Positions 9,730 to 41,840 of a stretch of DNA of 64,000 nt are shown in pieces; position 1 is the first letter of the stretch, and each line of letters opens with the position of its first letter. Made by a program: the position numbers and the translations under genes. The DNA comes from Apostichopus japonicus. Lineage: Eukaryota; Echinodermata; Holothuroidea; Aspidochirotida; Stichopodidae. The notes under the pieces are model-generated. The model saw only the letters and a program-made list of their open reading frames with translations. It was not told the origin of the DNA and searched no databases. The DNA lies in contig NC_092578.1 in NCBI RefSeq assembly GCF_037975245.1, forward strand, positions 17,863,821 to 17,927,820, read 5' to 3'.

Positions 9730-10900
9730 AGAGCAACCATTTCTCTTCATTGGCACCAGGCTAACACCATACTACGAACAATCATTTTATTTACAAGCCA
9801 TGCATAGACTAACCTCAAACCAAGAGCTTCAGCGACATTACACTGTACTCAGGGTAGTGCTGAAAATTGACTAAAATCTTACGTCAAACAATCAGTTTCT
9901 TTCTGACACTTGACTTTTTTCTCACTCGGTCATTCCTTGTTTGGCCACAGTGGGATTACACCATGCATGAGAATCAATCATTCTTCTACTTTTTACACAA
10001 TGAGCCTTACAGCTTGCAGAGAGCAATCGTTTCCATCATGACACCGGACGTACACCTTACAGCTTGCAGAGAGCAATCGTTTCCATCATGACACCGGACG
10101 TACACCTTACAGCTTGCAGAGAGCAATCGTTTCCATCATGACACCGGACGTACACCTAACAGCTTGCAGAGAGCAATCGTTTCCATCATGACACCGGACG
10201 AACACCTTACAGCTTGCAGAGAGCAATCGTTTCCATCATGACACCGGACGTACACCTTACAGCTTGCAGAGAGCAATCGTTTCCATCATGACACCGGACG
10301 AACACCTTACAGCTTGCAGAGAGCAATCGTTTCCATCATGACACCGGACGTACACCTTACAGCTTGCAGAGAGCAATCGTTTCCATCATGACACCGGACG
10401 TACACCTTACAGCTTGCAGAGAGCAATCGTTTCCATCATGACACCGGACGAACACCTTACACAGAGGGCAACCATTGTATACACACCGCACTGGATGACC
10501 ATCAGCTTCTCAAATCAAAGCAGTCATTTTTATTCTTCACCTACACCGGGCTTACACCTTACTCAGCAACACCGATATTCTTCATGACAATGAGATCTTA
10601 TCATACCAATGAATAAGCAAGTATTTTCTCATCAATGGCACCAGGCTTACACCATACTCGGACAAAGAGCTTACACCTTAAAGAAAGCAATTGTGTTCTT
10701 CACTGACACGTGGCCTACACCTTATACAGAAGGACAGATTTTATTTTGCAAAACGAGCTTCCAACTGATCAATGAGCAATCAGTTTATTCACAACACCAG
10801 AATTACACCTTCTAAAGAGCAACCATTTTCTCAATGACACCAAATTTAAACACAGAAAAATGTTCATGACACACTAGGCTTACATCTTACTTTTATCAAA
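9730..10900 (+). repeat. Old, diverged 50-bp-like repeat field around a young tandem core
   Basis: Short phrases of the 50-bp repeat recur in degenerate form on both sides of the regular array: AGAGCAACCATTT, GGCACCAGGCT(A/T)ACACC, CTTACACCTTA, CTTCATGACAC. They occur at about 9733, 10480-10600, 10630-10740 and 10800-10890. This suggests an ancient array in which a central segment was recently re-amplified. Confidence 0.6.
10005..10454 (+). repeat. Minisatellite, nine copies of a 50-bp unit
   Basis: The unit begins CCTTACAGCTTGCAGAGAGC and ends ACACCGGACGTACA. Starts fall exactly every 50 bp (10005, 10055, 10105 and so on). Copies are almost identical, differing mainly by A/T in CGTACAC versus CGAACAC. 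There are no unique spacers, so it is not CRISPR-like. It lies about 730 bp downstream of the FAM221A stop codon. Confidence 0.95.
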
Positions 10901-22571: not shown

Positions 22572-25500
22572 ATGGACCAGCAGGAGGTGCAAGTGCTCTC
22601 CCTATCCCGAGAAGAAACCGATAACCTCAAGGATGGAGTCAACCTCATCAACGTTTCAGGGAGCGAAAAATATGTGGTCTTCAAGGAACCGGGGACGGAT
22701 ACCTACAGAGCCTGCCTCAACAAATGTAAACATCAAGGAGGCACCTTCATTGCAGACATCGAAGATAGCACAAAATGGTAAAAAAATAAAACTCCCTTCC
22801 CCCACCCCCCCCCCCACCCCCTTATCTTCACTCCCTCTCTCCTCTTCCTTCCATTTCCTTGCCTTGTTCAACACAATTGTCTTAATTAGGAAAGAGGGTG
22901 GGAATGTTTTATAATGCTGTCAAATACCTTGGTAAGTACTATGACCCAAACCTGTCATCTTCAATGCACAGGGTAATGCCACTATTGCTAACCGCTTTAG
23001 AATTATTCGTTATATCTCAAAAAAGTTAATCTCTTTCTCCTACCATGATTTTGTGAAAAACGTCATAACGTCTTTATAGTGTAAAACAGAATTGGTTTAC
23101 ATAGGTGCAACTCTCTTCATGATGGCATTAACTGAAATGTCAATTTACAGAAAGTTGCTGCCAGGGTTATACGATCGTCGTAGGCGTGAGGGTGTTTCTG
23201 ATATTTCTTCATGATTAAACACTGGCTGCCAGTAAAGGATCATATTCATTTTAAATTAATTTTACTTGTTTGTAGATCTATGTATTCATTATTCAAGCTG
23301 TTCAATTAAGATGACTGAAGCTTTGGAACTCTCTTCCTACAAACAAACGAATGATCGAGGGCCTTGATAGATTTAAACATGAGTTAAAGCACATGTTTTC
23401 CACGAATAGCCAGGTGTTTTACAACAAATATGATAAGGGGTATAATTCTTGTGGATCCTGTGTCGTCTGTGTTGATTTGACGAAGCTAGCAGCTGGGCTT
23501 CAGAAATGCTTTTTATTGTTTCCTTGCTGAAAAGCAAAAGGAATCATTACGGTCATGATGCCGTGTGTAGGTGATGCTTTGGCTTGTGAAGCCGATAACT
23601 CAATATTCTTAAGTTAGATGGACTTCATACAAACTTTGTATGTGGACATTTACCAAATTGAGTTCTCTGTTGCTATTGTTTTTTGGCCGGAATCAAAGAT
23701 CATACTAGGTCACCAGAGGTCAAACTAAAAACATTGTAAACATGGTATCTCAAGAACAGAAGCTTTGACGATTCTCATGCTTGGCATACATGTTGAGGTC
23801 CCATATTGAGTATGGTGCTTAAAACCTTCATGGTCAATAAGGGCAGGCATACCTGACATACAGTATGTACTTAGTGTACCATTGGGGAACGCAAGGATTG
23901 AAACCTTCAACAGGTCAGATTCGACTGACCTACCACCTACAGTATGGAGAACCCTTACCACAAGCTACAGTATTAAAGTATATAGTTTTATCCACTTGTA
24001 CCATTATACCAGTTTCCTACTCAACTTAATCATGATTACAGAAACATGCTTTAATACAACGCTCTGCACTTACGTACTGAACAGTACTGTATATACTAGT
24101 AGCACTAATTTATTCCTGGTTGTGCAATATCACAATACTTAGAACTTCACTGAGTCATGGGTCAGTAAGGCCTGAGGGAAGTGTAGGTTATACTACATAC
24201 AGCCATACCAGTGCCAAAGGTCGTGCTTTATATGCACAGTGTAAGATGGTTGGTTTTCTAAAAGTACAGTAGGATATACGTACATAGTACCTGTTGCCCT
24301 TTGAGGGCAGGCAATGATCAACAACCCTTCAAAGAAAAGCAAACAGTTTGATTACTTTTTGAGGGGGAGAAAAAAACAAAGATAGCGAGCATGAATCAGA
24401 GACATTCAAAGAAAATGAAGCAACTTATTAGTAAGAATTTAATAGGCATTTTCTGTGGATTAATGCCAACATAAACTTCCCCTTTTGAGAGATCTATGCC
24501 ACAGTAGAACTACAACCATGGCGATGGTGAACTGCTTGGAGGTGTGAGGTGTACTGTCAGCATCTTGGACCTTTGACCTTCCCTATGGTAACATCACAAC
24601 GATACTATTACCTCAAGAAGATTGATTCATCAATTTGTTTTGAGCATACAGTAGACCTATAAGTTTGTGAAAAGTGATTGATGTATATATCTTTGTGGCT
24701 AGCTTAAATTGTATTAAATTACTGTGTAAAGTAGGCACCTGTTACTGGTTATGACCAGGCGTAGCCGGGGGGGGGGCGAAGGGTGCAGCCACCCCCCCTT
24801 TTGAGCATATTTTGTTTGTATGTTTCTATGATATCACTAGTATTTTCAAAAGAGAAAATACTAAGATGCAACTTACAAGGCCTGGGAAGTGCCATTTCCA
24901 GCGATCTGGGAGGCATTTTCAGCCAAAATTTTCTTGTATGCTTCGGGCCAACTCATGGTGGCTCTACGCTTAGATAGTTTGCAATGCCGTATCTACGGCT
25001 CTTATAGTTTGCCTACAGTTTCGCCCCTCCCTTGGCAAATTCCTCGCTATAGCCTGGTTATGACCATTAAATTGATTTCAATACTGCACACAGTGTCACT
25101 CACCTGTCACTCTCCTGACAACAACTGCCCTCAGTTGTGATAATAATAATAACCGTTAAGTAAAATGCTGTCACAAGCTTGTACCCTTAAGTACAGCATA
25201 GTAAAGTAGCACAGCTATGCATTGCACACTATGTGTCTGTCATGTGTAGTTATTCAAGTCTACAGCAGTCAATCAGGAGCTATCAGATAGTACATTTATA
25301 ATCCAAGCCACATATAATCTGCAAAGTTCATCACAAGTTTTTCTGGGGAGAATGTTGAAATCTGTAGAGAAAAAAACTTGAAAATATCTAGGTCCTTGGC
25401 TAGGAACATTTCAGAGAAAACTTGCAACCTTACCAGTTACCTGTGGCAACATTATGAGGAAACATCACTGAAAACTTCTTAACATTTTTAATTTTTGAAA

Positions 25501-28500
25501 ATTAAACAAAGTTTCCTGCGTGGGATTAAATGGCTACCGTTGCACAGTCACTAAATTAAGAATATATTTTTTTAAATGGATGTTATTAAATTGTATGAAC
25601 GGTAAAAACGCTGGGTTCATAACGGGTACAGAACTGTTTTGATGGAGGTTCATGTTGAATACTGTAAGTACTAGTAACTTGGTCAATAGTCCCTTCCCCT
25701 TGTAAAGTTTTAACATCAGCTTTGTAAATGTCATCCGTTGTAAAGATACTGTGTACTGTATCAATGTGGTTGTTCCTTAGCGTATTAATTTACATTACAA
25801 AGGTCCATTAGTCATTTGTTCTTTGAACAATCTGAATTGACTAGTACTGTGAGTCAGCCTTGGTACACAGTTACTATAAAACAGAGGCAATCACAATATA
25901 TGTACTGTACATTATAACATATTATACAACACCTAATTATATTCCGGCCATGTGATTGGTCAATTGCTCGTCGATTGAATGTAATTTGTTCCATTCAACG
26001 AGGCTGCGCCTCGTTGAATGGAACATCCCATCTTTCAACTCATGAAATATTTGCACTATTGCACTCATAACCATTCATTATTTGTATACTGTAGGCTTAT
26101 GACTTCAAGTCATAAGCCTGGCTTGTAATGAACTTCTTTTGTATATTTTATACACAAAATTTGCTTTGTTTTTGAAATTCTGGAGATGTTCCAAATAGAG
26201 AGTGTGTTTTTTTTTCTTTTCTTTATTCACAATTCTCAGCAGTAAGACCTTTTGCATGACAGGTCGAGAACAGTAAGGCATCCTAAAAATTTGAACCGAA
26301 AGAATTGTTACAGAAATACTTGTAGCACACTAACTACGCCCAGGTAGAGGGCTGACATGTATCGTGTCAGATTTCGTTACAGACGTGCAAGCAGCTGTAG
26401 ATATGTATATAGCAAAGCTGCGCGATATTCACAGCAAGAATATTCAAAACGAGTTTTACACTATACAAATTAATCAACATTAATTTAAAGTGAAAAACAA
26501 TGGATGTGATCGATGGCGTAGTCGATCAATATTGAACGTCATGTAATTGTAGCAGAGTGACAACATTGTGTTAATGAGTTACAGTCGTCTTCCGGTTAAT
26601 AAAGCTTCCCTCAAAAGAGGGGGGAAGTTTATAGTTAAATTACTTGCGTATACTAACAAGCAGACATTTTGTGAATAGAGCTAACAGACAAGTAATTTCC
26701 TGTCCTATGGAAGATACTTATGATACAGTATAATACTGTTGGCACCCCAATGCATTGAGATTGACCACTGGGGGAGGGGGGGGTGGAGGCCAGGGGGAAG
26801 AGAAGTGGGAACAGAAATTATGGATGCGTTCTACATTGTATCCAGTCTGCACACACTTCATATAAAGCCTGTTTAGGTACCGTAGCTTGAAGTTCAAGGG
26901 TCAAAAACACAAAAGCCAAAATGTCTTGAGAAGTGTAACTAAAAAAGAACGGAACTACTGTACATATATGCAGAATTTTTTAAGAGATTTTTAAGTTTAA
27001 GGTTTTTTCAGTTTTTAATTAATTTTAAGATACTAATTACAGTATGGGAAATTAAAGCAGATTTGTCTGTGGCAGTAGTCTCAAAACGATGCCGTCATTT
27101 TGCATGTCAGCTCTCTGTTGAAGAGATGTTTGGCAAATTGGGTGTGGAGGGGGGGGGTGGAGGAGGCGTGTGGTCCACACCTTGTCCTTGCCACAATATC
27201 CACAACGGGGCGCTGCAAAATGGGATTCCCTATCTCTGACTGATTCCCTGAGTAGAGAGTTGCACATTATATCCTATGGACACTCACAACCATGGCGTAG
27301 TCACCATGAAACTAACTTGAGAACTATATAGTATACACTTTTCTTTTGAATATATCTTTGTCACTGATATGGCAACAATCATCTACTGTAGGTATCTGTG
27401 CATCCGTTCATGTTAAATGTTTGTAAAGACGTGTTGTCACAGTGAGCGCAACCTTCCAGAAACCGTACAATACAATACCGTAGATACATGTATGAGCAAA
27501 AAGGCTTTTATAGCAAATCGCACATGTTCGAGTGGTAGCACACAGTATAAAGAATTCTTCTCTAACCAAAGTCTGCCAAATATGACCATTTCTTTCATTG
27601 CATTGGTTTCTCTTCAACAGTGTCCTAAAGTGTACGAAACATGGCTGGAAGTTGGACGCAAGTACCATGCGCTACGTCAACCCACCGGATAGTTTTCGTC
27701 AGGAGCAGTTAGGTCAGTGGAATTCACTTTTCAGCATACCTCGGCTCTGTGTATAGGCTGCTGCGACGATTGGTGGTGACTTTAGTACAGTTCCCCCCAG
27801 TTTCTAGTTCAAATCTATGAACATGCATAGAGCAAGCTTGCAGATTCACTGTCGTTGGTTTTACGCCCTGTAATATGTGCTATTGTATTCTAATGATGTT
27901 TCTTTACTGGTGTCAAACACCTTATGTTTATGATCGCAAATCACCCTGACAGGCACCTGTACATAGGCAAATGATCCGAGGTGAGGGCTCCATGGGGACT
28001 GAAAAGGACATCCCGTACACGGTTGACTATGAGTGGTTACATCAAGTAAGGCAGCTTCTTTGAGGTTTGCAACGCTATAACTATGAGATTCCCATGACAG
28101 TGTAGTTCAAAGTAGCTTGAATTTATAAGCTTTTAGTACATTAGTACAAAACAAATTAATTAAAACGATAATAATAATAATTAAAAAAAAAAAAAAGTAC
28201 AAAAGCATTTTGCGAGTACCATAATTCTCCTCACTATGAGTACAAACAAACCATGAGTACAATTCAGGGGCTAGACTTTTTTTCTTTGAGGAGCCCAATG
28301 CTTTTCAAGAGGGCAGGGGTAGTTTCTATTTTCTGACAACTTTTGGAGGGCCCTAAACACCTTCCCCCCCCCCCCACGCCTCCTCCATCCCATGTAGTTT
28401 TACCACTGGTACGAGGCCCTAAGTGTCAGTACAAGCACTAAAAATGCTGGGCTGTGTACAAGTACTGTAGGAGTACAAATCTGGAGGCTGAGTGATGGAC

Positions 28501-31500
28501 TAAGCCAATACAAACTATGGAATCACTGAAAGTCTGTGACTTAGTTTAATCTATGAAATCTATCTATCTGCATTTTTAATACATTCTGTACATCATGTGA
28601 TTAGCTTAATACTCGCTCAAAACCATTCTGGGCAGATCGAAAAAGAGAAATCTGAAAAGAAAAGACAGAGAATGCGATGCGAACCCATTTACCCTACGGT
28701 AGTGTTGTTAAAAGAAGAAATTACGAGTTGGTCTTATCGTCTTTGTTTGATAAAACACTCATGTTTTAAGTCAATATTTACCGGGTTTCCAGTATGGTAT
28801 GTACTAGAATACAGGTAATTGGTGTATTAGGCACACATGAGGTACTTTTATATACAGAAATATTGCCCCTTAGCCTTTTCAAAAGGATTATGTTATGTTG
28901 AACAGGACCTTGTTTTGCTTGCAGAGCACTTGGCTTTTCTTTGAATTACATGTCATAAAGTGTCAACCCCACAATTTGGTTTGTTAGTCACTATTGACAA
29001 GTCTATTGTCTATTGATTTTTAACTTGCTTTCATTTTCTTTGAAGCATTTATGTACTTGTGTTTTGCTGATAAGTTTACTCTAAGACTTGACACGACTCG
29101 AAAACCAAAGTTTCGCTACTACGATGACGGGAATGTATCGTCAGAGCCATCGAACCATAATCCGGGTTCGGTAAATGTGTGCTTAATCAGATAAGATAAA
29201 GTGATGCGTGACTGTGCTGACGTGTGAAACCTGTAACAGTTTGACAGCTCTTAGAGATCTGTGAGTCACAAGCCAAAGGCATGGTGACTAATGGCACAAG
29301 GGGCGTGGTTGATCTCTGTAATCGGTAATCGCTGGAAAATGGTCTTTGTCATGATGTAGCCATTTTCCTTGTATTTGTTTATAAGTATGGTCCATTTCCC
29401 TCTATTTTATAGGGATCCATGAAAACCATGATTGATAAGGATACAGGAAATATAGTTAAAAAAATTCAGTAACCTTTCTTAAACAATAGGAACGAAATTA
29501 ATATTTTCTCATCGCTTCAATAAACACTTTGATGCACAAATGTGGCGAAACTGGCCAATCAATATCTAAGCTCATTTGAAAGTGGAAGTTTAAAAAAAAT
29601 GTTTCTCGTTGCGGTTTTAGAAAAGCATGATTTAAACATTTAGGCTTGTACTGAGAAGTAAACAAGTAAGTAAACAACAATCTGCTTTAGATACCTGATT
29701 TCTTAACCTCAATCTACAGTAGTACTTCAAGAAATTTGGATTGATTGTGGTGTACATTAACTATAAATGTACTATTTACTATGTACTATAAATTTAGTAT
29801 GCATACATACATACACACATACATACATACATACATACATACATACATACACACATACATACATACATACATACATACATACATACATACATACATACAT
29901 ACATACATACATACATACATACATACATACATACATACATACATACATACATACATACATACATACGCACATACATACATACATACACATATACATACAC
30001 ACATGCATTCATACTGTACATACATACTGTACATGCATTAATTATGTTCTCATAACCCTTCCACCCTGACCCCTTACCATCCCCTCCCCCTCATGTAAAC
30101 ATCCCTTTACCTTCCCACCCTCATTCACACATACATGCAAACTGTACATGTGTATTCATTATGTTCTCATATCCCTTCCTGCAAACCGTACATGTGTACA
30201 TTAATTATGTACTCATTATCCTTCCACCCTCTCCCCTTACCATCCCCTCCCCCTCCCCCTCACATAAACATCCCCAAACCATCCCCTTCACCTCCCCACC
30301 CGCATGCACACATACATGCATACTGCACATATATACATTTATTATGTTCTAATAACCCTTCCACCCTCTCCCCAAGTTACCATCCCCTCCCCCTCCCCTC
30401 CCCCTCACATAAACATCCCCTAACCATTCCCTTCACCTCCCCACCCTCTTCTAGTGCATAGCAACACTACTCATACGTATTTTAAGTTTGCTGTCTTTAT
30501 CATGAGATCCTTGTGCCTCTTCTATGGCTTAGTATGCATACATACATACACACATACTACTGTAATACTTTAAGAACTGTTTAAGTACTCTGTTTTTTGC
30601 ATTGTAGTCATTTAAATGTATTTATCATTATCCAACCTGTGAATGGGGTAGTAGAAGCCAAGAAAGTGTCACTAATTAATTTGGCCCATTGAAATTATAC
30701 TCTGTTCCTCAATGCAGATACAATGCAGTGCTGTAGCCAAGGTAAAAGGCACTGTACACACCGACCTGTCGCTGTTGAATCGACCTAGAAAGCTTGCAAT
30801 GAGATATTTCTCCGTTTATCAAATCTGATCTCTTGACTGCGCAATCTGTTTCTTTCTTGTTTGCTTGTGGGAAACATTTAGCATGTACTTCAGCACAATG
30901 TAATGTTAGAGCTACATACTTACCATATATACAGTATGTTTAAGTTTCATAAATGTTGTCGAGGCAAAGGGATAATAGAGTTTACCATAATTGAGGTCCA
31001 TTTATCTTGACTATGTGATTAGTTCATTTATCAAAGTGAATGAAACATTAAAAAAAAAGGAAAAAAAAGCAGTTTTGGATGAATTATTTAATCAACTATG
31101 TTTTCTCAGTGTAATACTTATTGTACAGTACAAGTGGGTATGAGTGTAAGTTTTTTGCTATTTTTTCTCGGTGTAATCTTTACTGTACAGTACAAGTGTT
31201 ATTTTCTATCCCACAGTACCGGAGGTAACAGAAGACGGTAGGCTCACCCTGAATGAGTTGAAACCGCCGCAACCCTGGGAAGACGATCCAAGGGAAAAGT
31301 TGCCTCTTGAGATTGGTGAAGTGAAGGTATAAATCAGTCGTTGAAAGTCTTAACATCTTATCTGAAAAATATCTGAAAATTAAATCTGAAAATTATCTAA
31401 TTATTCCAAGAAAAAGTTTCCTTTTTTAAATTTAAGGTGAATTTTGATCAGGCAAATGACTTTGGTTTTTTCTTACCCTTGGAATAAATTTTAAAAAACT

Positions 31501-34500
31501 ATCTAGATCTCGTAGAATTGAGATATATATGGTTTTGTTAATAGGGTTTTCTCTAAGGTGGAGGAGAAGCCAGAAGGGTTTCTTTGGGATTAGGTCCTAT
31601 TAGGCTATTACTGTAACTCATCTAACATGTTAATAAGTAATGTCACGAAGAAAGATGGTAAATGCATTACAGAGATGTACAAAAGTAACCTCGGAAAACT
31701 GAATTCTCTCTGACACTGCATATTTCGCTTTACCTTAACTCTTCTACAAGGTAACATATTTCACCCATGCGTGTATGGAATACAATTTCAACGGGACCAT
31801 CTTCTTCACGGACCCATGGCTCACGGGACCGGCCTTCTCAAGAGGCTGGTGGCTGATGCACGAACCACCGTCCGATTGGCCGGAGAGATTAGCCAAAGCT
31901 GACTTGATCTATATCAGTCACTGCCACTCGGATCATCTGAGGTAAAGCGATCAAGGATCACAAACTGGAAGCCAAGTCACAGGCTTTTCATTTAGTTTTT
32001 AAAAATATTCTGTCTATTATTTAAATCTAAACAAAAAAAATTATCTTTTAACTATTTGGTCGGTCGATACGAATCCTTTGTCTCTTCCAGTAAGAGAGAT
32101 CAGGACTATGGCAAATTTTGCAATATCCAATATATGTGTTCCATGAGGACTGAGCCATGACCCACCCACCAGACCCCACCCTTCAGAATCGTTGCTAAGA
32201 ATGCAACAAATTGAAGTTATCTTGGACTATGGCCTTGATATTATATAAAAATATAAAAATTTAATCCACCTCTGTCGTCAAGCTCCAAAAACTTGAGATA
32301 AATTTTGTTATGCCTGGAAAAGTCACTGTGACCCACATAAAATATTTCTCTATCACCACCTCCCTCCCCCACCCCCACTCCAGTAGTTTGAGAGGAGTGT
32401 TCCGCTACATCTTTGAGTTGTTTAATTAAATCTTGTTTTGCGAAAAAAGGAGACGTTTGATCACCATCTTCTTGAGCTCATGATAAAAGGCTTGCAATTT
32501 TTTTTTCTTCATAATTCTTGATTATCCTGAAGTCACCATCTTCTTCTATCAGGACTTATTTTTTCCTCTCTATCTCTCTTGTAGTTATCCGACGCTGAAG
32601 ATACTTGCAGAGAAAAATCCAGACATTCCGATATACGTAGGTGACACGTCCATGCCCGTCTTCTGCAAACTGGAACAGAGCGGAGTTAAGCTAAACAACA
32701 TCAATGTACTGAAGTTTGGACGGTGGTTCAAGGTGAGAGAAAGAGATTGTAACTGTCGGAGATATACCTTGAATTTACATCAACTTTGTATTTCCTTTCT
32801 CCCCCCCCCCCCTGATTTTCCCCATTCAATTAAACTATGTTGAGGTGGTGTCATGCATAAAACTCTTCATTCAGAAATATTTGATATTTTTATTTAAAAT
32901 GTCATATTTTTTCGGGATATCCCGTCCATGAGATCCCCGGTTTACACTGCAGTAAGCAAGCTACTGCTATTTCTGGTTGGTGCTTTCTAGCAAAGAAACA
33001 GTCGATTAAAAGATGCTATGAACTGATTTGTATTTCCCGACTAAACATTCCCTTTCTAAACATTTTGTTTTTATGCTGTAAATCTTTGGATTTTTCTCAT
33101 CACCAGGTCAACGAGGACTTACGGTTTATGATAATGATGGATGGTGTCCACCCAGATATGGATACTTGCATCCTGATCGACTATAAAGGTGCGTATGCAT
33201 TGTTATGGCATAACAATGGCCTCACAAGGATACCAGACAATGAGAAATAAGAAATGATGAAAACAATAGTAATAGCATAGCAATAGCCTCATGAGCATAC
33301 CAGACAATGCAAAATAATAGTATAACAATAATCAATACAATAGCAATAGCCTGATGAGGATACCAGACCATGAGAAATATTAGGTTAAAAAAAAAGGAAA
33401 ACAATAGTAATAGCATAACAATAGCCTCATGAGGATACCAGACAGAGATATAAGAAATGATGAAAACAATAGTTAGAGCACAATAGCCTCATGAGGATAC
33501 TAGACAATGCAAAATAATAGTATAACAATGATAAATACAAATAGCAATAGCCTCATGAGGATAACAGACAATGAGAAATAGTAGGTTAAAAAAAAAAGGA
33601 AAACAATAGTAATAGCATAACAATAGCCTCATGAGGATACCAGACAATGCAAAATAGTAGTATAAAATTTTGAAAACAATAGTTAGAGCACAATAGCCTC
33701 ATACCAGACAATGAGAAATGTTGAATAGAAAAGTTATGTACGATGAACGAGCAGTAAGATAATGGAAACAATAGATAGTAAGAACAATAGCTTCATAAGG
33801 AAACTAGATGGTGACAAATAATGAATCATGAACATGTAGAAGAAGTATAAATCAAACTTAAAAGAACAGTCTAATAAAAGCATTAATGGCTTTGACTGTG
33901 AAATATGTCAGTTAAGAAGGACATTCTAGAGTTATTGTATCTATGTTGGCAGCTGGATTTTGTCAGTTATGAGTGTCTGTGACATTCCCCCGTTTGCATC
34001 AATTTTACCGTACGGTGTATCAACTTCCAGCGTTGTCTATCTTGAAAAGCTATCGTTAGTATTTACTCTATGTAATTTATCATGTTTGGGAGTCATGTCA
34101 TGAATGTTTCAGCTTCAAAGAGGTGAAGATTGACTAGATGATAAATAAATACTGATAATTAACAAACAGTATTATAAGATAAATGTTCATAATAAATAGA
34201 CAGCCATCTTTGATGTTCATATTTGCTTTCCAAGTAATATAAATTAGTGGTACATAGTCCCAGACATGAGGCAAAAGGAATCATTCCGTCATAATGCTGT
34301 GTGTACACGCGCGCGTGTGTGTGTGTGTGTATGAGACGCTTTGACTTGGAAATAGGATAACTCAATAATCTAAATTCGGATGGACTTCAAACTTTGTATG
34401 TAGATGCACCATATTGAGTTCTCTGTTGCTATTGTTTTTTGGCTGGGATCAAAAGGTCATATTAGGTCACCAGATGTCAAACTCTGAAAACCTTGTACAA

Positions 34501-37500
34501 AAAATATCTAAAGAGGGGAAGATTTGATGAATCTCATACTTGACATATAGATGTCCCATGTTAAAGTAGAAGAACCCTACTGATTTTAGTGTAGGCAAAA
34601 GATTATTAAAGGTCACCAGAGGTAAAACTATGAAATCCTTGTTAACATGACAACTCAATATTACAAAGTTGAATGAACTCCAAACTTGCTCTACAGTAGT
34701 CAGATAGTTATTTTGAATTTTGAGCAAGTTGTATGGCAAAGAATCACAAAGTCAAGTGGCTTTCTGGTACGGGAATGTTCTGTAGAAAAACAAAAAATTA
34801 CAGGTTCATCAGCTGTAAGAACGAAGTTGAAGGCTAATAGGCTTTTGTGGCAAGTCCAAGGTCTTCTCGCATGACAACATTTAACCCTGGTCACTGGTGA
34901 CTTTTCACACCCACACACCCAAGTGTGTACAATTCAAACTTGGAAGGCACTACAGTGCACAACATCTACACATACCCTGGGGCTAATCCAATGATGTATA
35001 GCCATGGCCTGGCAGTGCACCACTATATTTACAAGTTACAGCTGTACCCTTGCATGTCTCCACTTGCACACTATGGTCCAGAGAGGCCCATGGACTCATT
35101 GAAATGATTCGGCCGGAACTCAATCCTGTAATCATTAGATCGCAAGTCCATCAGTCTTACCATAACGCAGGATATATTCGAGACTGCCGACCCAAATATA
35201 ACGCGGCATCCAACCAATTCTAACACATTTCTTTTCCTTTGTTTTTTTAGGTCACCAGATACTCAACACAGTGGACTGTACCAACCCCAATGGTGGACGA
35301 CTTCCCCAGGGTATCGATATGATGCTCAGTGACTTTGCCGGGGGTGCGTCGGGGTTCCCCATGACATTCTCCGGGGGCAAATATACAGGTAACCCCTACT
35401 ACCTCCTTATGCGATTTAGTTCTGCATTATGGAACTAACCTTTTTGTAAGCTGTTTACAGGGAGATGTTCACCAATTAGCATCTCAAAGACGTGGGATTG
35501 GGATTTTGCGTCTCATTCTTGTTTTGCCTTCATTCAGCGCAGAGACATTGTTAAATTAAAATGGTTTTGTGACATGATAACTCTGAAGCACAACTTTCTC
35601 CTTGTTTGTGTTTTGATGCCAAGGTTAGTGCAAAATTATGAAATGTGCAAGAAGATAATGGCTACCCCTGCCTTGTATACAAACCAACCCACCACTATAT
35701 TGGCTAGTTTTGGGAGCAATTCTGGTTGTTTCATGGTTTCTAGTTTGTCAATAATTCCCTTTTGGTTTTTTTTTACAAAGGAGACACAAAATAAGAGAGG
35801 GTGTGGGTCCATCTAATGTGATGCTATATTAAGGATTAAGATTTACTATATTAAGGATTAAGATTTACTATATTAAGGATTAGAATTTACTATATTATGA
35901 ATGAAGATTTGTTAAGATGACTATGAAAAAAGTCTGTGTTTAGAAATGTCATAGGAAAAAACAACAGCATAAAGAGCCAAGACTTCATATTTGCAGCAAA
36001 CTGTGCAATTTGCTGAATACCTATAAACATTAGATTCTCTTTGTTGGAAGATTTAACTTTTCTTTCTGGTTATTTTCGAAACCTCTTGTAGAAGAATGGA
36101 AGGCACAGTTCATCAAACGTGAAAGAAACAAGCTCCTTTACTACAAGACGCAGGTGGTACGAGACGTCTCGCCGTTACTCTATTGTCCGTTTGCCGGCTA
36201 CTTCGTAGAGGCGCACCCTTCCGACCAGTAAGTTGCAGTATTTAATACATTCTTCCCACACGATTTTAAAACTTGGAAAAAGTCTGGAAAAAGTAGTAAA
36301 AAAGTAAAAAAACTCTTTTCTGCATCTTGAAAGTTGTCAAAGTATTAATCCGGAAACATGGTGGGGTGTCTCAAAAATGTCTGGTATTTCAGTTTTTTTA
36401 AACTTTTTTTTATTAAATGTGGGGACCCATGTTATATAACTGTTAACACAGATCAAACAAGCAAGTCTGTCTTTAAGTAATTTCATACCAAGAGTCAATA
36501 CAGAAGTTTTAGTCCGGAAACATGGTGGGGTCTTTGAAAATGTCTGGCATTTAATTTTTTTTTTTTTTTTTTTAAATGTGGGGACCATGTTTAATAATTG
36601 TTAACACAGATCAAACAAACAAGCCTGTCTTTTAAGTAATTTTTACACGAAAAGTCAATGCGCCAGCTTTCAATGTCTTCCTGCTTGTAAAGTTTCGTCT
36701 GATATGCTTTTCTACATCCCATCTGTCCTTCAGCTACATACGAGACACTAACACCAAGAACGACCCCGCAGCTCTGAATGCGCTCATAGCCAAGTATTCT
36801 CCCGATATCAAAACATGGACCCCCAAACCAGGATCCATCTTGGACCTCCAAAAGGTCATCAACGGGGACAGGTAAGAATATCTGTTGTTTCTGGCGAGGT
36901 ATTGTGAATAGAAACACCGAAATACACATTGACATTGATGACGAATGAGCATGGTCTTTATAGCATCCAACTCTTTACTGTATGAAGGGCATCTTACCCG
37001 AACTTCAGATAAATAGGGTTTTATCAAGATATGGTTTCAAACTGGAGGTGTTGGAAGGCCATATGTCACAGATCTAATTGGGCAGTAACATCCCTGGGAA
37101 ATATGCCAAAATATACCAAAAATGGTTTCCAGTTTTATAGTTTTGCTATTTTTGCTGTTGTACTTACTATGCTGGAAGTCTGATATCAAGTAAATGCTTT
37201 ATCAAATATAGTAAGTCGACCAGGCTAGGTTCTGAGTCTCTTTGAAAGTAATATCATTGTCTTTGTTTAAACACCTGTCATTATTTGTGTATTTCTTTCA
37301 GCGATTTGATTATGTAATGTTTAAACACCTGTCATTATTTGTTTCTTTCTTGTAGCGATTATGTTATGTAATGTTTAAGCACCTGTCATTTATTTGTGTC
37401 TTTCTTCCAGCGATTACATCACAGAACCGTCTCCAGCGATGAAAGTAATGAAAGATAGGTGAGTTCAAAGTACTTGGTTCCAAACTCTATTTGTTTTAAA

Positions 37501-40500
37501 TTTCCAGATAGTCGATGGTTAATAAGGATCACCAAAATGTTCAAGATGACATCTATTTGGAGTTTCTGTTCATTCAGTTTCTTCATATGTATGGCTCAGT
37601 TTTGTAGAGCATAGAATCTGTTATTCCAAAGGTCACTGACTTGAATTCTGCAATGTCAACAAAAAAAGGAAGAGTTTTCTGCTCTTGAAGAGGTTTTTTA
37701 AAAAATGTCATCTTGTTTTCTGCCATTATTTAGCTGAGCTGTTATCTATGTTTTATCATGGCCAAGAAAATGTTTTGAAGTTTTGGCTACATATTTGAGC
37801 ACACCACTGTCCGAGGTACTAGTTTTTGACGTTCGTCGTGCCCACCTTCTCTGCGCACTCTACCGTAGCACCGGTTTTGGAATTACCAGTTTTCTGGTGC
37901 GGAATTATTATGAATTTTCCATCCCGTTTTCCTTTCGTCAGGTGGAACTTTGACAAGTATCTAGACCAAACCAACCAATGCGTCTTTGACGAAATCTTCT
38001 CCTATCCGGAGTGGATACAGTTCTACTACAAGTGGACCAAGTTTGGTGATTACAATTTAGTCATCAGGGTAAGCCAAAAGAAATCTTTGGAAATGTATGT
38101 GTGTGTGTTGGTGTTTGTATGTTACACCTGCATGTATGTTAAACATGATAACTCAGAGCTTGCCTTAACTTGATAGATGCTATACAGATACAGGTGATGT
38201 GCCTCTTGCATGGGCAAAGTTTACACAAATGACATTTGAGTGAGTATGAATGTAAATAAGATGGAAATCGGTAGTCATGGTTTTGATGTCAGTCACACAG
38301 TCTCAGACAAATCTAGTGAATGTTACTGTCCTTAGTACAAGATTGGCAAGTTAGCATGTAGGAAACACATAGGAAGCACGTGGGAAACGCATGGTAAGCA
38401 TGAAGGAAACACATGGTAAGCATGAGGGAAACACATGGTAAGCATGTGGGAAACACACGGTAAGCATGTGGGAAACACATGGTAAACACGTGAAAACACA
38501 TGGTTAGCATGTGGGGAACACACAGTAAGCATGTGGGAAACACACGGTAAGCATGGGAAACACACGGTAAGCATGTGGGAAACACACGGTAAGCATGTGG
38601 GAAACACACGGTAAGCATGTGGGAATACACGGTAAGCATGTGGGAACACGGTAAGCATGTGGGAAACATGGTAAGCATGTGGGAAACACACGGTAAACAT
38701 GTGGGAAACACACAGTAAGCATGTGGGAATACACGGTAAGCATGTGGGAACACACGGTAAGCATGTGGGAAACACACGGTAAGCATGTGGGAATACACGG
38801 TAAGCATGTGGGAACACGGTAAGCATGTGGGAACACACGGTGAGCATGTGGGAATACACGGTAAGCATGTGGGAACACACGGTAAACATGTGGGAAACAT
38901 GGTAAGCATGTGGGAACACATAGGAACATGTAAGAAACACATAGGAACATGTAGGAAACTTAAAATGCCAAAGTTAGTTGAGTGTACAAGTTCTGTGGAA
39001 ACGGCACAGACACAAATTAGAAAATTAGATTGAAACAAATTTTTAAAAACTTGGAGTGAACTGAATTGAGAAGCAAAAAATATGAACTGAGCAAGTGGCA
39101 GGCATGTATAAGATTAAAAGAAGATCTCTATTCCTTTTAGATCGTTTCATAGTGTGATGCATTTTTTTGTTTGCATTTAGATGATTGAAACGGACGATCA
39201 GTTTGGGCCCATCCAAGGAGGCTACGATTTCTACGTTGACTTCAGTGGCCCCGAACCGACCTTTCCCACGGGGAGACCAGAGAGAGAACACAGCTACTTA
39301 GAGGTATGCCACCTCATACAAAAACATGCTTCCATGTTAATTGAATCTTTGATGAGTAATGTAACTTACTCAAGAACAAGTCTCCAGAGAAATGCCCATT
39401 CTGTGAAAGATCTTCTCTTAGATGTATCTGCATTGGTTACAGGAAGCATTGACTATTTTTTTTGATGAATGCTATATTCAACAGGTAGAAGCCTACATGT
39501 TCATGAAATTACATGTATGTTTGGTTCATCTACGAAAGGATAAACAGAAAGTTTGTTTTGACTCAAGATTGGTTCATTTCGAGTGTTATTAACTTTACCA
39601 ATCCAGAGGTGACGAGGTATCACATCTTATGTCAGTATTTCGTCGTCTTAATGGTTATGGATAAACTCTTGTTCATATCAACAATTATTTTAATTGGATC
39701 AACAATCCAAGCCTAACAAAGGACATTCAATTATTTTTTCTCTCCAAGTGACCTCCTTCTCCTTCATTGCTCTCAGTATTCTTGTCAAATTTCGTTCCAA
39801 GGTTTTACGGCTCTCAAGGGGGAGCTGTTAAACTTCTCATTCTTGGCATTTTCTGTCTGCAGATGAAGAACAGGATAGGTGTCCACAGAGAGACCGTCAA
39901 GAAGGGTCTATTTTGGGACGACCTCTACATCGGTTTCAATAACCGCATCTCAAGGGAACCGGATACATTCCATTATCAGTGAGTTTCATCCTCATCTATC
40001 ATCTCTTTAGAATCCTCAAAATTATTGCTTTGTCTTTCATCTTTGACCGTCCTCTCAACATGAAATATAAATATTCAATTTTTTGTTGAATTTCTTGTCG
40101 AAAGTGGATTTTGTTTTTTTTGGTTCACTCGGTTGACCCTGAAAATATTACAGGACTTTAGCATGGACAACAAGTATCTTTGAAAGCTGATGATATAAAC
40201 CGAGTAACTGACGCTGTTCCAGTCAAATGAGTTTACTAGATTTGGTACCACACCCATAGAAGGACATGTCCACTAGTCAAAACATGCACCATACCTGTAG
40301 AAGGACAGGTTCACTTGTCAGAACAAGTACCACACCCATAGAAGGACAAGTCCACTAGTCAGAACAAGTACCACACCCATAGAAGGACATGTCCACTAGT
40401 CAAAACATGCACCATACCTGTAGAAGGACAGGTTCACTTGTCATAACAAGTATCACACCCATAGAAGGACAAGTCCACTAGTCAGAACAAGTACCACACC

Positions 40501-41840
40501 CATAGAAGGACATGTCCACTAGTCAAAACATGCACCATACCTGTAGAAGGACAGGTTTACTTGTCAAAACAAGCACCACACCCATAGAAGGACACGTCCA
40601 CTAGTCAGAACAAACACCACACCCGTAGAAGGACACGTCCACCCACCACTGGTACAATTAAGACCAATTACTAACCAATCTGAACAGGGTGTTTATTTAA
40701 ATTGAGCTTTAACCTCAAGAAGCACCAGAAACTCTCAAAGAATCGCCAACTTCTGCAACAAATAATCAGTGTCTTTAGTAAATTCAGTTTTAGCCAGAGC
40801 AAACACCACAACATTAAAGGGACACCCACAATTGCTACAATGTTAATGGTGCATTAGTCAGAAGACCAACTACTGCTTACACAAAACAATTGTTCGGCCT
40901 AACACATACATACTTAGCTTTGCGATATGCTTTACTGAACTCCTTTTGCCTTCCGAACATCCTTTAGGTTCTGGAATCACATGCAGATTCTTCTGAAAGT
41001 TGCCACTCCGAATTGGGAGGGGTTCCTCGCTGACATGAAGGCTAAGAATACTGCCAAGAGGGATGTATGGGCGCCAGAAAAGATGGAGGATATAGCAGGT
41101 AAAGTTAACGATAATAATAAACAATGATATTAAGAAGAAAAGAAACAATAAAAATGTTTTAATTTAGCTAGGTCATCACACAGTGGGGTTGTATGTGGAT
41201 CGCATGTTACATTACATTATGTTTCGATACATTAACATGTGGAAAACTGAAGGGGGTCCAATAGACCAAACCCTAGACTTTATCTAACTGAAAAATTAAG
41301 ATTTGCCATTAACGATGGGACTAATCTACCTTCCAAAAGGATTTGTCCCACTGCATGTAAATTAGCATTCAAAGTAACTTGTCGGGTTACTTCCGGTTTG
41401 GAAGTTTTCTTGGCCTGGACACTTTTTCATGTGAATATGAATCATATGTAAAAAGAAACAGCATGTGGGAATTTTTTAGAAAACGGTTGGGTTTCTTATT
41501 CATTTTTGGATATAATACTTGACTAGTCTATTAAAGTAAGGAATGACATTGTTTCTGGGATCGCTACCAATTCATAGCACCAGACAGTTTGACCAAGATC
41601 AATGTGGAATGCCGCTTCAGTGCAAATTTCAAATACGGAAGAGGTTTTTTCGTTTTTGAAGCTATACGGTCCTTTATTCACTTCTCAGGCGTCACCAAGC
41701 ATATACCCAACGGACAACCTCGAACTCCGGCGGTTCCGACGAACGGGTACAATTGGCGAACCTATGTGACCGTCCTAGTGTCATCTCTGGTCGGGGCGTT
41801 GGCAATAGCGTACATGTGGAAAACCAGACCATCTTTATGA
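22572..41840 (+). CDS. CMAH: CMP-N-acetylneuraminic acid hydroxylase, membrane-anchored form
   Basis: This enzyme converts CMP-Neu5Ac to CMP-Neu5Gc using cytochrome b5 electrons. Fifteen coding exons are all in phase: 22572-22777, 27621-27712, 31217-31326, 31751-31941, 32585-32732, 33107-33188, 35251-35388, 36092-36227, 36734-36871, 37411-37458, 37942-38068, 39181-39303, 39863-39978, 40968-41098, 41689-41840. They give 645 aa. The Rieske [2Fe-2S] ligands are Cys52-Lys-His54 and Cys73-Thr-Lys-His76. A metallo-beta-lactamase-like motif SHCHSDH follows (His193, His195, Asp197, His198). GWWLMHEPPSDW, MDGVHPDMDTC, DFAGGASGFPMTFSGGK and CPFAGYFVE match vertebrate CMAH closely. Vertebrate enzymes (about 577 aa) are soluble. 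Here the last exon adds a linker and one transmembrane segment (about 620-639), as described for starfish. No frameshift or stop was seen, so it should be functional. Confidence 0.97.
22905..23450 (+). mobile_element. Degenerate non-LTR retrotransposon (RT C-terminal region)
   Basis: Broken frames carry the conserved order of LINE RT-tail motifs. VKYLGKYYDPNLSSSMH comes first (about 22918-22970), then ANRFRIIRYISKKL, AARVIRSS, HWLPVKDHIHFKLILL and finally WNSLPTNKRM...RFKHELKHMF (about 23317-23400). Several frameshifts and stops separate them, so it is dead. It lies in CMAH intron 1 in the sense orientation. Confidence 0.85.
23525..23810 (+). repeat. Dispersed repeat, copy 1 (CMAH intron 1)
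   Basis: It shares AAGGAATCATT, GATAACTCAATA, GATGGACTTCA, ACTTTGTATGTGGAC and TTGAGTTCTCTGTTGCTATT with the copy at about 34265-34560 in CMAH intron 6, same orientation. The family is not recognised. Confidence 0.8.
24756..25056 (+). mobile_element. hAT-like MITE with perfect 8-bp target duplication, 301 bp
   Basis: GTTATGAC flanks both ends exactly (24748-24755 and 25057-25064). The left terminus is CAGGCGTAGCCGGGGGGG. The right end GCTATAGCCTG is its degenerate inverse. The body contains TTTCCAGCGATCTGGGAGG and TTTTCTTGTATGCTTCGGG, shared with copies at 3010-3305, 3838-3961, 5459-5560 and 18478-18601. It is the best-bounded member of the most frequent mobile family in the window. Confidence 0.9.
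25988..26024. repeat. Perfect 37-bp palindrome
   Basis: A 17-bp arm GTTCCATTCAACGAGGC, a TGC loop, then the exact reverse complement. It lies in CMAH intron 1, 68 bp before a second perfect palindrome. Confidence 0.95.
26093..26119. repeat. Perfect 27-bp palindrome
   Basis: A 13-bp arm AGGCTTATGACTT, a single central C, then the exact reverse complement. It pairs with the palindrome at 25988-26024 in the same intron. Confidence 0.95.
27953..28045 (+). other. Exon-like open block in CMAH intron 2
   Basis: This 93-bp block is preceded by CACCCTGACAG (good acceptor) and followed by GTAAGG (good donor). It is open in one frame, including MGTEKDIPYTVDYEWLHQ. Its symmetric phase 0 does not match the phase-1 junction between CMAH exons 2 and 3. 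Inclusion would read four codons and then TAG. It could be a poison cassette exon, an exon of an overlapping unrecognised gene, or chance. Confidence 0.35.
29797..30005 (+). repeat. (ACAT)n microsatellite, about 50 units
   Basis: A nearly pure CATA/ACAT tetranucleotide run with a few CACA interruptions, in CMAH intron 2. It creates long spurious open frames of His-Thr-Tyr-Ile or Met-Tyr-Val-Cys repeats on both strands. Confidence 0.97.
30006..30460 (+). repeat. C-rich imperfect tandem repeat, about three long units
   Basis: Units of roughly 130-150 bp each contain ATTATGTTCTCATAACCC-like sequence, CTTCCACCCTCTCC, CCATCCCCTCCCCCTC, a CATAAACATCCC block and CACATACATGCA. They appear to have grown out of the adjacent ACAT microsatellite. 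Confidence 0.8.
33205..33815 (+). repeat. Tandem repeat in CMAH intron 6, about nine units
   Basis: Diverged units of about 65-70 bp share ACAATAGCCTCATGAGGATA, CCAGACAATG and AATAGTAATAGCATA. The array begins within about 20 bp of the exon 6 donor. Confidence 0.9.
34265..34560 (+). repeat. Dispersed repeat, copy 2 (CMAH intron 6)
   Basis: Homologous to 23525-23810. Unlike that copy, it contains an expanded alternating purine-pyrimidine run (about 34300-34330, ACACGCGCGCGTGTGTGT), a likely Z-DNA former. Confidence 0.8.
35829..35910 (+). repeat. Short tandem repeat, 24-bp unit
   Basis: Three to four copies of ATTAAGGATTAAGATTTACT with TAT, in CMAH intron 7. Confidence 0.9.
36335..36680 (+). 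repeat. Two-copy tandem duplication in CMAH intron 8
   Basis: Two copies of about 170 bp share TCCGGAAACATGGTGGGG, AAATGTGGGGACC and GTTAACACAGATCAAACAA. They differ mainly in the length of an internal T run. Confidence 0.9.
37262..37421 (+). repeat. CMAH: Triplicated 3' splice site before CMAH exon 10
   Basis: Three tandem copies of roughly 57-60 bp read GTTTAA(A/G)CACCTGTCATT, a T-rich tract, then TTTCAG, TTGTAG or TTCCAG followed by CGATT. Only the third copy (exon start 37411) continues into the conserved coding sequence. Splicing at the first or second copy would give Ser-Asp plus three residues, then TAA. Confidence 0.92.
38350..38960 (+). repeat. Minisatellite of donor-like GGTAAGCATG units in CMAH intron 11
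   Basis: About 27 units of 17-22 bp follow the pattern CGGTAAGCATGTGGGAAACA; about 20 carry the exact word GTAAGCATG. The array starts about 280 bp after the real exon 11 donor, which reads AGG|GTAAGCC. Long open frames on the minus strand (up to 241 codons) are products of the repeat. Confidence 0.95.
40247..40640 (+). repeat. Higher-order tandem repeat, 123-bp unit made of three 41-bp monomers
   Basis: The monomers ACCACACCCATAGAAGGACA..., CACCATACCTGTAGAAGGAC... and a third variant alternate in fixed order. The A monomer starts at 40247, 40370 and 40493, exactly 123 bp apart. It lies in CMAH intron 13. Confidence 0.95.

Follow-up and report, generated by a model that had tools for sequence, protein, structure and literature searches.

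The 64,000-nucleotide stretch of Apostichopus japonicus DNA analyzed here (the window) contains a CMAH gene in which the end of intron 9 is repeated in tandem up to, and slightly into, exon 10. The features discussed below are as follows.

22572..41840, forward strand: CMAH gene model of 15 coding exons and 645 codons, open from ATG to TGA without an internal stop
36734..36871, forward strand: CMAH coding exon 9, with the donor CAG/gtaaga at 36872
37264..37317, forward strand: array copy 1, with a branch-like region, a pyrimidine tract, CAG at 37299-37301 (exon start 37302) and 16 nt ending in TAA at 37315-37317
37318..37371, forward strand: array copy 2, with TAG at 37353-37355 (exon start 37356) and 16 nt ending in TAA at 37369-37371
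37372..37416, forward strand: array copy 3, with the frame-keeping intron 9 acceptor, CAG at 37408-37410
37411..37458, forward strand: CMAH coding exon 10, 48 nt, (S)DYITEPSPAMKVMKD(R)

All exon borders of the gene model are GT/AG with compatible phases, and the frame closes with TGA at 41838-41840. CMAH is defined by a Rieske domain together with a metallo-beta-lactamase-like domain in a single intact reading frame. Both domains were found in the one intact frame, with Pfam matches above cut-off to Rieske (PF00355, aa 19-85, E 1.9e-5) and Lactamase_B_3 (PF13483, aa 136-217, E 2.1e-5), while Lactamase_B_2 (PF12706) fell under its own cut-off. The protein was 61% identical to an approximate sequence of a vertebrate CMAH; the alignment continued through the exon 9/10 junction (DS..I.EP), which is immediately preceded by a gap of two residues. 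These observations bear out the sequence-only reading, which had named the gene as CMAH. A genome search with the CMAH protein returned 14 matches, all of them the window's own exons, with no separate match for exon 10 (16 codons); CMAH was thus found once, and this search yielded no paralogue lacking the array that could have served as an outgroup. Searching PDB chains with the protein gave no match at E 0.001, and among prokaryotes, to which we turned for an external check of the frame, no CMAH relative was confirmed (4 and 93 pattern matches). Skipping of exon 10 would preserve the frame. The C-terminus encoded at 41689-41837 is hydrophobic (YVTVLVSSLVGALAIAYMW) and resembles a membrane anchor.

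Tandem Repeats Finder placed the array at 37264-37416, with a period of 54, 2.8 copies and 89% matches. In pairwise gapped BLAST, copies 1 and 2 were 89.1% identical over 55 columns, copies 1 and 3 90.9% over 44 columns, and copies 2 and 3 88.9% over 45 columns. Ungapped comparison of copy 3 gave values down to 61% over 54 nt because this copy carries one additional T and runs into genuine exon sequence; its similarity is clear until ~6 nt inside exon 10 (CGATTA). All three copies contain TGTTTAARCACCTGTCATT, followed by a T-rich tract and then AG. When the 44 nt at the exon 10 acceptor (38 intronic and 6 exonic) were compared with the 400 nt of upstream intron, the score was 64, which none of 200 shuffles reached (shuffled maximum 28), so the similarity is not due to chance. 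The three near-identical segments noted earlier ahead of exon 10 are confirmed. The 160-base region that holds the array was searched against the whole 671.6 Mb genome with a method that skips very common words, and was found at a single location, its own place in the window. This single location argues against an origin from a wider repeat family or transposon, and the rest of the window gave matches of only 10-23 nt (E at least 0.019).

We also observed that the stretch after the copy 2 acceptor (37356..37372, forward strand) approximates the reverse complement of exon 10 at 37413-37429, with 14 of 17 positions matching. This similarity, noticed post hoc, was reached by none of 3000 mononucleotide shuffles and by a single one of 6000 intronic 19-mers; its 11-mer version (10 of 11) was reached by 7 of 3000 shuffles and 6 of 6000 intronic 11-mers. 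The stretch may reflect a snap-back origin of the linker or templated filler, or it may be a chance resemblance.

The array provides three acceptors, with exon starts at 37302 (after CAG), 37356 (after TAG) and 37411 (after CAG). Of the starts given earlier, 37411 was right, and 37303 and 37357 were each late by one base. To score the acceptors, we used a matrix of 23 positions built from the 13 other CMAH acceptors, whose own leave-one-out scores ranged from -3.4 to 13.1. Copy 1 scored 8.0, copy 2 10.7 and the in-frame site 9.4; among 979 other intronic AGs, with copies 1 and 2 themselves counted, 8, 2 and 4, respectively, equaled or exceeded these values. The AG is present in all three copies and each is predicted to be strong by matrix score, in agreement with the proposal that the upstream CAG and TAG are usable. 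The spare acceptors therein look competent and strong for CMAH, and a matrix of 13 sites is unable to rank the three. A candidate branch-point A lies 21-22 nt upstream of the exon start in every copy, within GTCAT, which we take to be a possible branch-point motif. That both upstream AGs were kept despite ~10% divergence says little for or against their use. The array region had an ordinary RNA fold (z 0.02), with 95 of 200 shuffles folding equally well, and RNA structure as a switch was rejected on this ground. We also considered, and set aside, two in-frame 12-nt mini-exons, each using the GT of GTAATG in a repeat unit, which would require 42-nt introns and a weak donor.

Joining exon 9 at 37411 preserves the CMAH frame, whereas the transcript would gain 109 nt from a join at 37302 and 55 nt from one at 37356. 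Read on in frame from exon 9, both upstream joins meet a TAA five codons past the junction codon (37315-37317 and 37369-37371), just as the sequence-only reading had described, and either way translation would stop at codon 419 with five exon junctions downstream in the model. For both acceptors the premature stop therefore lies upstream of a later junction, the arrangement expected of AS-NMD. From this stop to the end of the extended exon there are 141 nt for the 37302 join and 87 nt for the 37356 join, and both values exceed 50 nt, the usual distance for nonsense-mediated decay (NMD). The genome contains three exon matches to the UPF1_Zn_bind family, the one NMD factor searched for. The two TAAs are one shared feature of the copied unit, not two independent events. 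Furthermore, 109 and 55 nt are frameshifts into AT-rich intron, so an early stop would be expected anyway.

We then considered how the array is placed relative to the splice sites of CMAH. The gene span contains 10 merged arrays, of which one crosses a splice site. When a single 153-nt array was placed at random, it overlapped a CMAH acceptor 11% of the time; in simulation, the probability that at least one of the 10 arrays covers an acceptor was 0.87, a value inflated by permitting long arrays over exons. Testing all 14 acceptors and 14 donors of CMAH for nearby copies, with 200 shuffles each, also flagged the acceptors at 31217 (score 33, 0 of 200 shuffles) and 31751 (score 23, 1 of 200) and the donor at 33188 (score 23, 0 of 200), the latter two being weak on inspection. 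Upstream of the exon at 31217 there is a 19-nt near-repeat (31118-31136 and 31180-31198) that is intronic and does not include the AG.

Next, we looked for boundary-spanning duplications elsewhere in the A. japonicus genome, in a sample of 117 exon matches (67 of 70 to the myosin head and 50 of 126 to kinesin). Exon borders in this sample were inferred by score, not from transcripts; acceptors were assigned in 115 of 117 matches (91 scoring above 2) and donors in all 117 (105 scoring above 3). Six of the 117 carried such a duplication, one at an acceptor (L051) and five at donors (L003, L024, L053, L062 and L098), a count that is neither blind nor complete, L098 not having been flagged by the scored duplication test. 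Three of the donors (L003, L053 and L062) are clustered in ~15 kb of C4 and probably belong to one gene, giving about four genes among the six cases. The myosin acceptor L051 on C19 (G000:C19:15108133-15109391, array at 504-875 of the locus) is a cleaner case than CMAH: it is triplicated as 3 x 124 bp at 98%, with three intact AGs and ~69 nt of exon copied. In the protein frame, its first upstream acceptor leads to a stop after 30 codons, and its second to no stop within 50 codons. At the myosin donor L003 (C4, near 23981812), the donor is repeated in a 17.4 x 53 bp array (1729-2680), and 19 sites, among them the authentic donor, agree with the donor region to within 2 changes. The L024 donor has a copy 220 nt away in which the 60 nt around the donor are identical, the copies of the L053 and L062 donors retain GT, and the kinesin donor L098 (C16) has two copies 113 bp apart, the second without GT. 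Two further candidates were dropped, L047 with a duplication confined to the intron and L092 with a low donor score and an uncertain exon end. Of 75 merged arrays with a period of at least 20 in the sampled loci, 4 cross an exon edge versus 13.3 expected by random placement, with exon edges taken as the ends of family matches and with slightly unequal tolerances for observed and expected counts. Arrays in these loci show no enrichment at exon edges, and perhaps avoidance.

Tandem duplications across exon-intron boundaries have been described in amphioxus as 'mirages', with units of tens to ~160 bp and with splice signals retained in many copies, and regular splicing is reported to be undisturbed (PMC3087553). 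The affected genes include the globins BflGb6 and BflGb9, Adh3, troponin C and PGBD5 (PMC3087553 and PMC3902484). The PGBD5 mirages, of 2 x 60 and 3 x 108 bp, are imperfect, and for Adh and troponin C no aberrant mRNAs are reported (PMC3902484). BflGb6 haplotypes differ in mirage length, with copies 81-100% alike, and the evidence for undisturbed splicing includes RT-PCR (PMC3087553 and PMC3902484). Because forms degraded by NMD can escape notice in steady-state RNA, leaky use of spare sites would be compatible with these reports.

The CMAH array fits mirages in its anatomy, as judged from the DNA: it is minisatellite-like, with imperfect copies and a unit within the size range of mirages; it crosses the exon-intron boundary, with 37411 lying inside 37264-37416; and splice signals are retained in all copies. 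It differs in belonging to an echinoderm and to CMAH, and in having only ~6 nt of exon in its unit. We found no report of boundary duplications in echinoderms in the open-access literature searched, which is a weak absence. Tandem duplication also copies splice signals and opens splice choices in the alternatively spliced introns from tandem arrays of Zhuo et al. (2007) and in the internal gene duplications with intron creation of Gao and Lynch (2009), both as cited in PMC3087553; unlike these cases, the spare copies of CMAH sit inside one intron. Work in Drosophila presents NMD as a backup for new introns (PMC2809761). Stops in novel spliceable sequence would likewise let NMD clear wrong products of CMAH; however, the Drosophila cases are whole new introns with weak sites, whereas CMAH has only added acceptors, and these score strongly.

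Taken together, we consider that the array is probably a splice-boundary minisatellite of the mirage kind, neutral or mildly costly and mostly tolerated, perhaps with some leak into NMD-bound transcripts. A segment made of the final ~38 nt of intron 9, the first ~6 nt of exon 10 and a linker of 10 nt would have been duplicated in tandem, and then again, with ordinary tandem-repeat mutation creating and maintaining the array without selection for function. Most CMAH mRNA would join at 37411, because there alone does exon 10 follow directly and the full protein result; upstream joins would be low to moderate, and mRNAs with the codon 419 stop would be removed by NMD. Counting against this reading, the upstream acceptors are not weak, so their being ignored is not predictable from the letters of the DNA. 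Exon 10 at 48 nt is also short, and the extended forms of 157 and 103 nt might suit exon definition better. In a version of this reading that puts more weight on use, and that is quite possible if short of probable, the spare acceptors would be used steadily, at more than ~1% before NMD, and would lower CMAH output without regulation. The spare acceptor scores close to that of the in-frame site and the candidate branch-point A in every copy would favor such use; on the other hand, the choice between duplicated splice sites reportedly depends on the exon sequence that follows them (Reed and Maniatis 1986). Amphioxus mirages that carry splice signals are, moreover, described as harmless to regular splicing (PMC3087553).

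It had been proposed that acceptor choice tunes functional CMAH, and we reasoned that regulated unproductive splicing, in which controlled choice among the three acceptors sets functional CMAH and hence Neu5Gc via NMD, would draw on three strong acceptors, on codon 419 stops past the 50-nt distance and on the presence of UPF1_Zn_bind in the genome. Sea cucumbers do make Neu5Gc, which accounts for ~85% of total sialic acids in Cucumaria (PMC6724515). We nonetheless judge this regulation very improbable, and the proposal found no support: the fold is ordinary, amphioxus splicing is reported as undisturbed, and chance overlap of an array with an acceptor is not rare. Like duplications also occur at exon edges of unrelated myosin and kinesin genes, which makes a CMAH-specific device unlikely. 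That the additional copies stem from read or assembly error is extremely improbable. Tandem repeats are commonly error-prone, but any two of the copies are set apart by several differences, and the array, at 153 nt, is much shorter than long reads.

A splice-boundary minisatellite in CMAH alone would be of little consequence, and the genome pattern matters more: boundary duplications, known from amphioxus in the papers cited, recur here in 6 of 117 exon matches as well as in CMAH. If they are genome-wide, they would offer many natural tests of spliceosomal choice between near-identical acceptors or donors, as well as raw material from which introns and isoforms could change. It is improbable that the genome holds a large, live population of boundary minisatellites and that, at CMAH, the number of spare acceptors fixes a heritable share of transcript lost to NMD, with individuals of different copy number differing in Neu5Gc. 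Outside CMAH, the window also contains a near-perfect tandem array at 10005-10461 (50 bp x 9.1, 98%).
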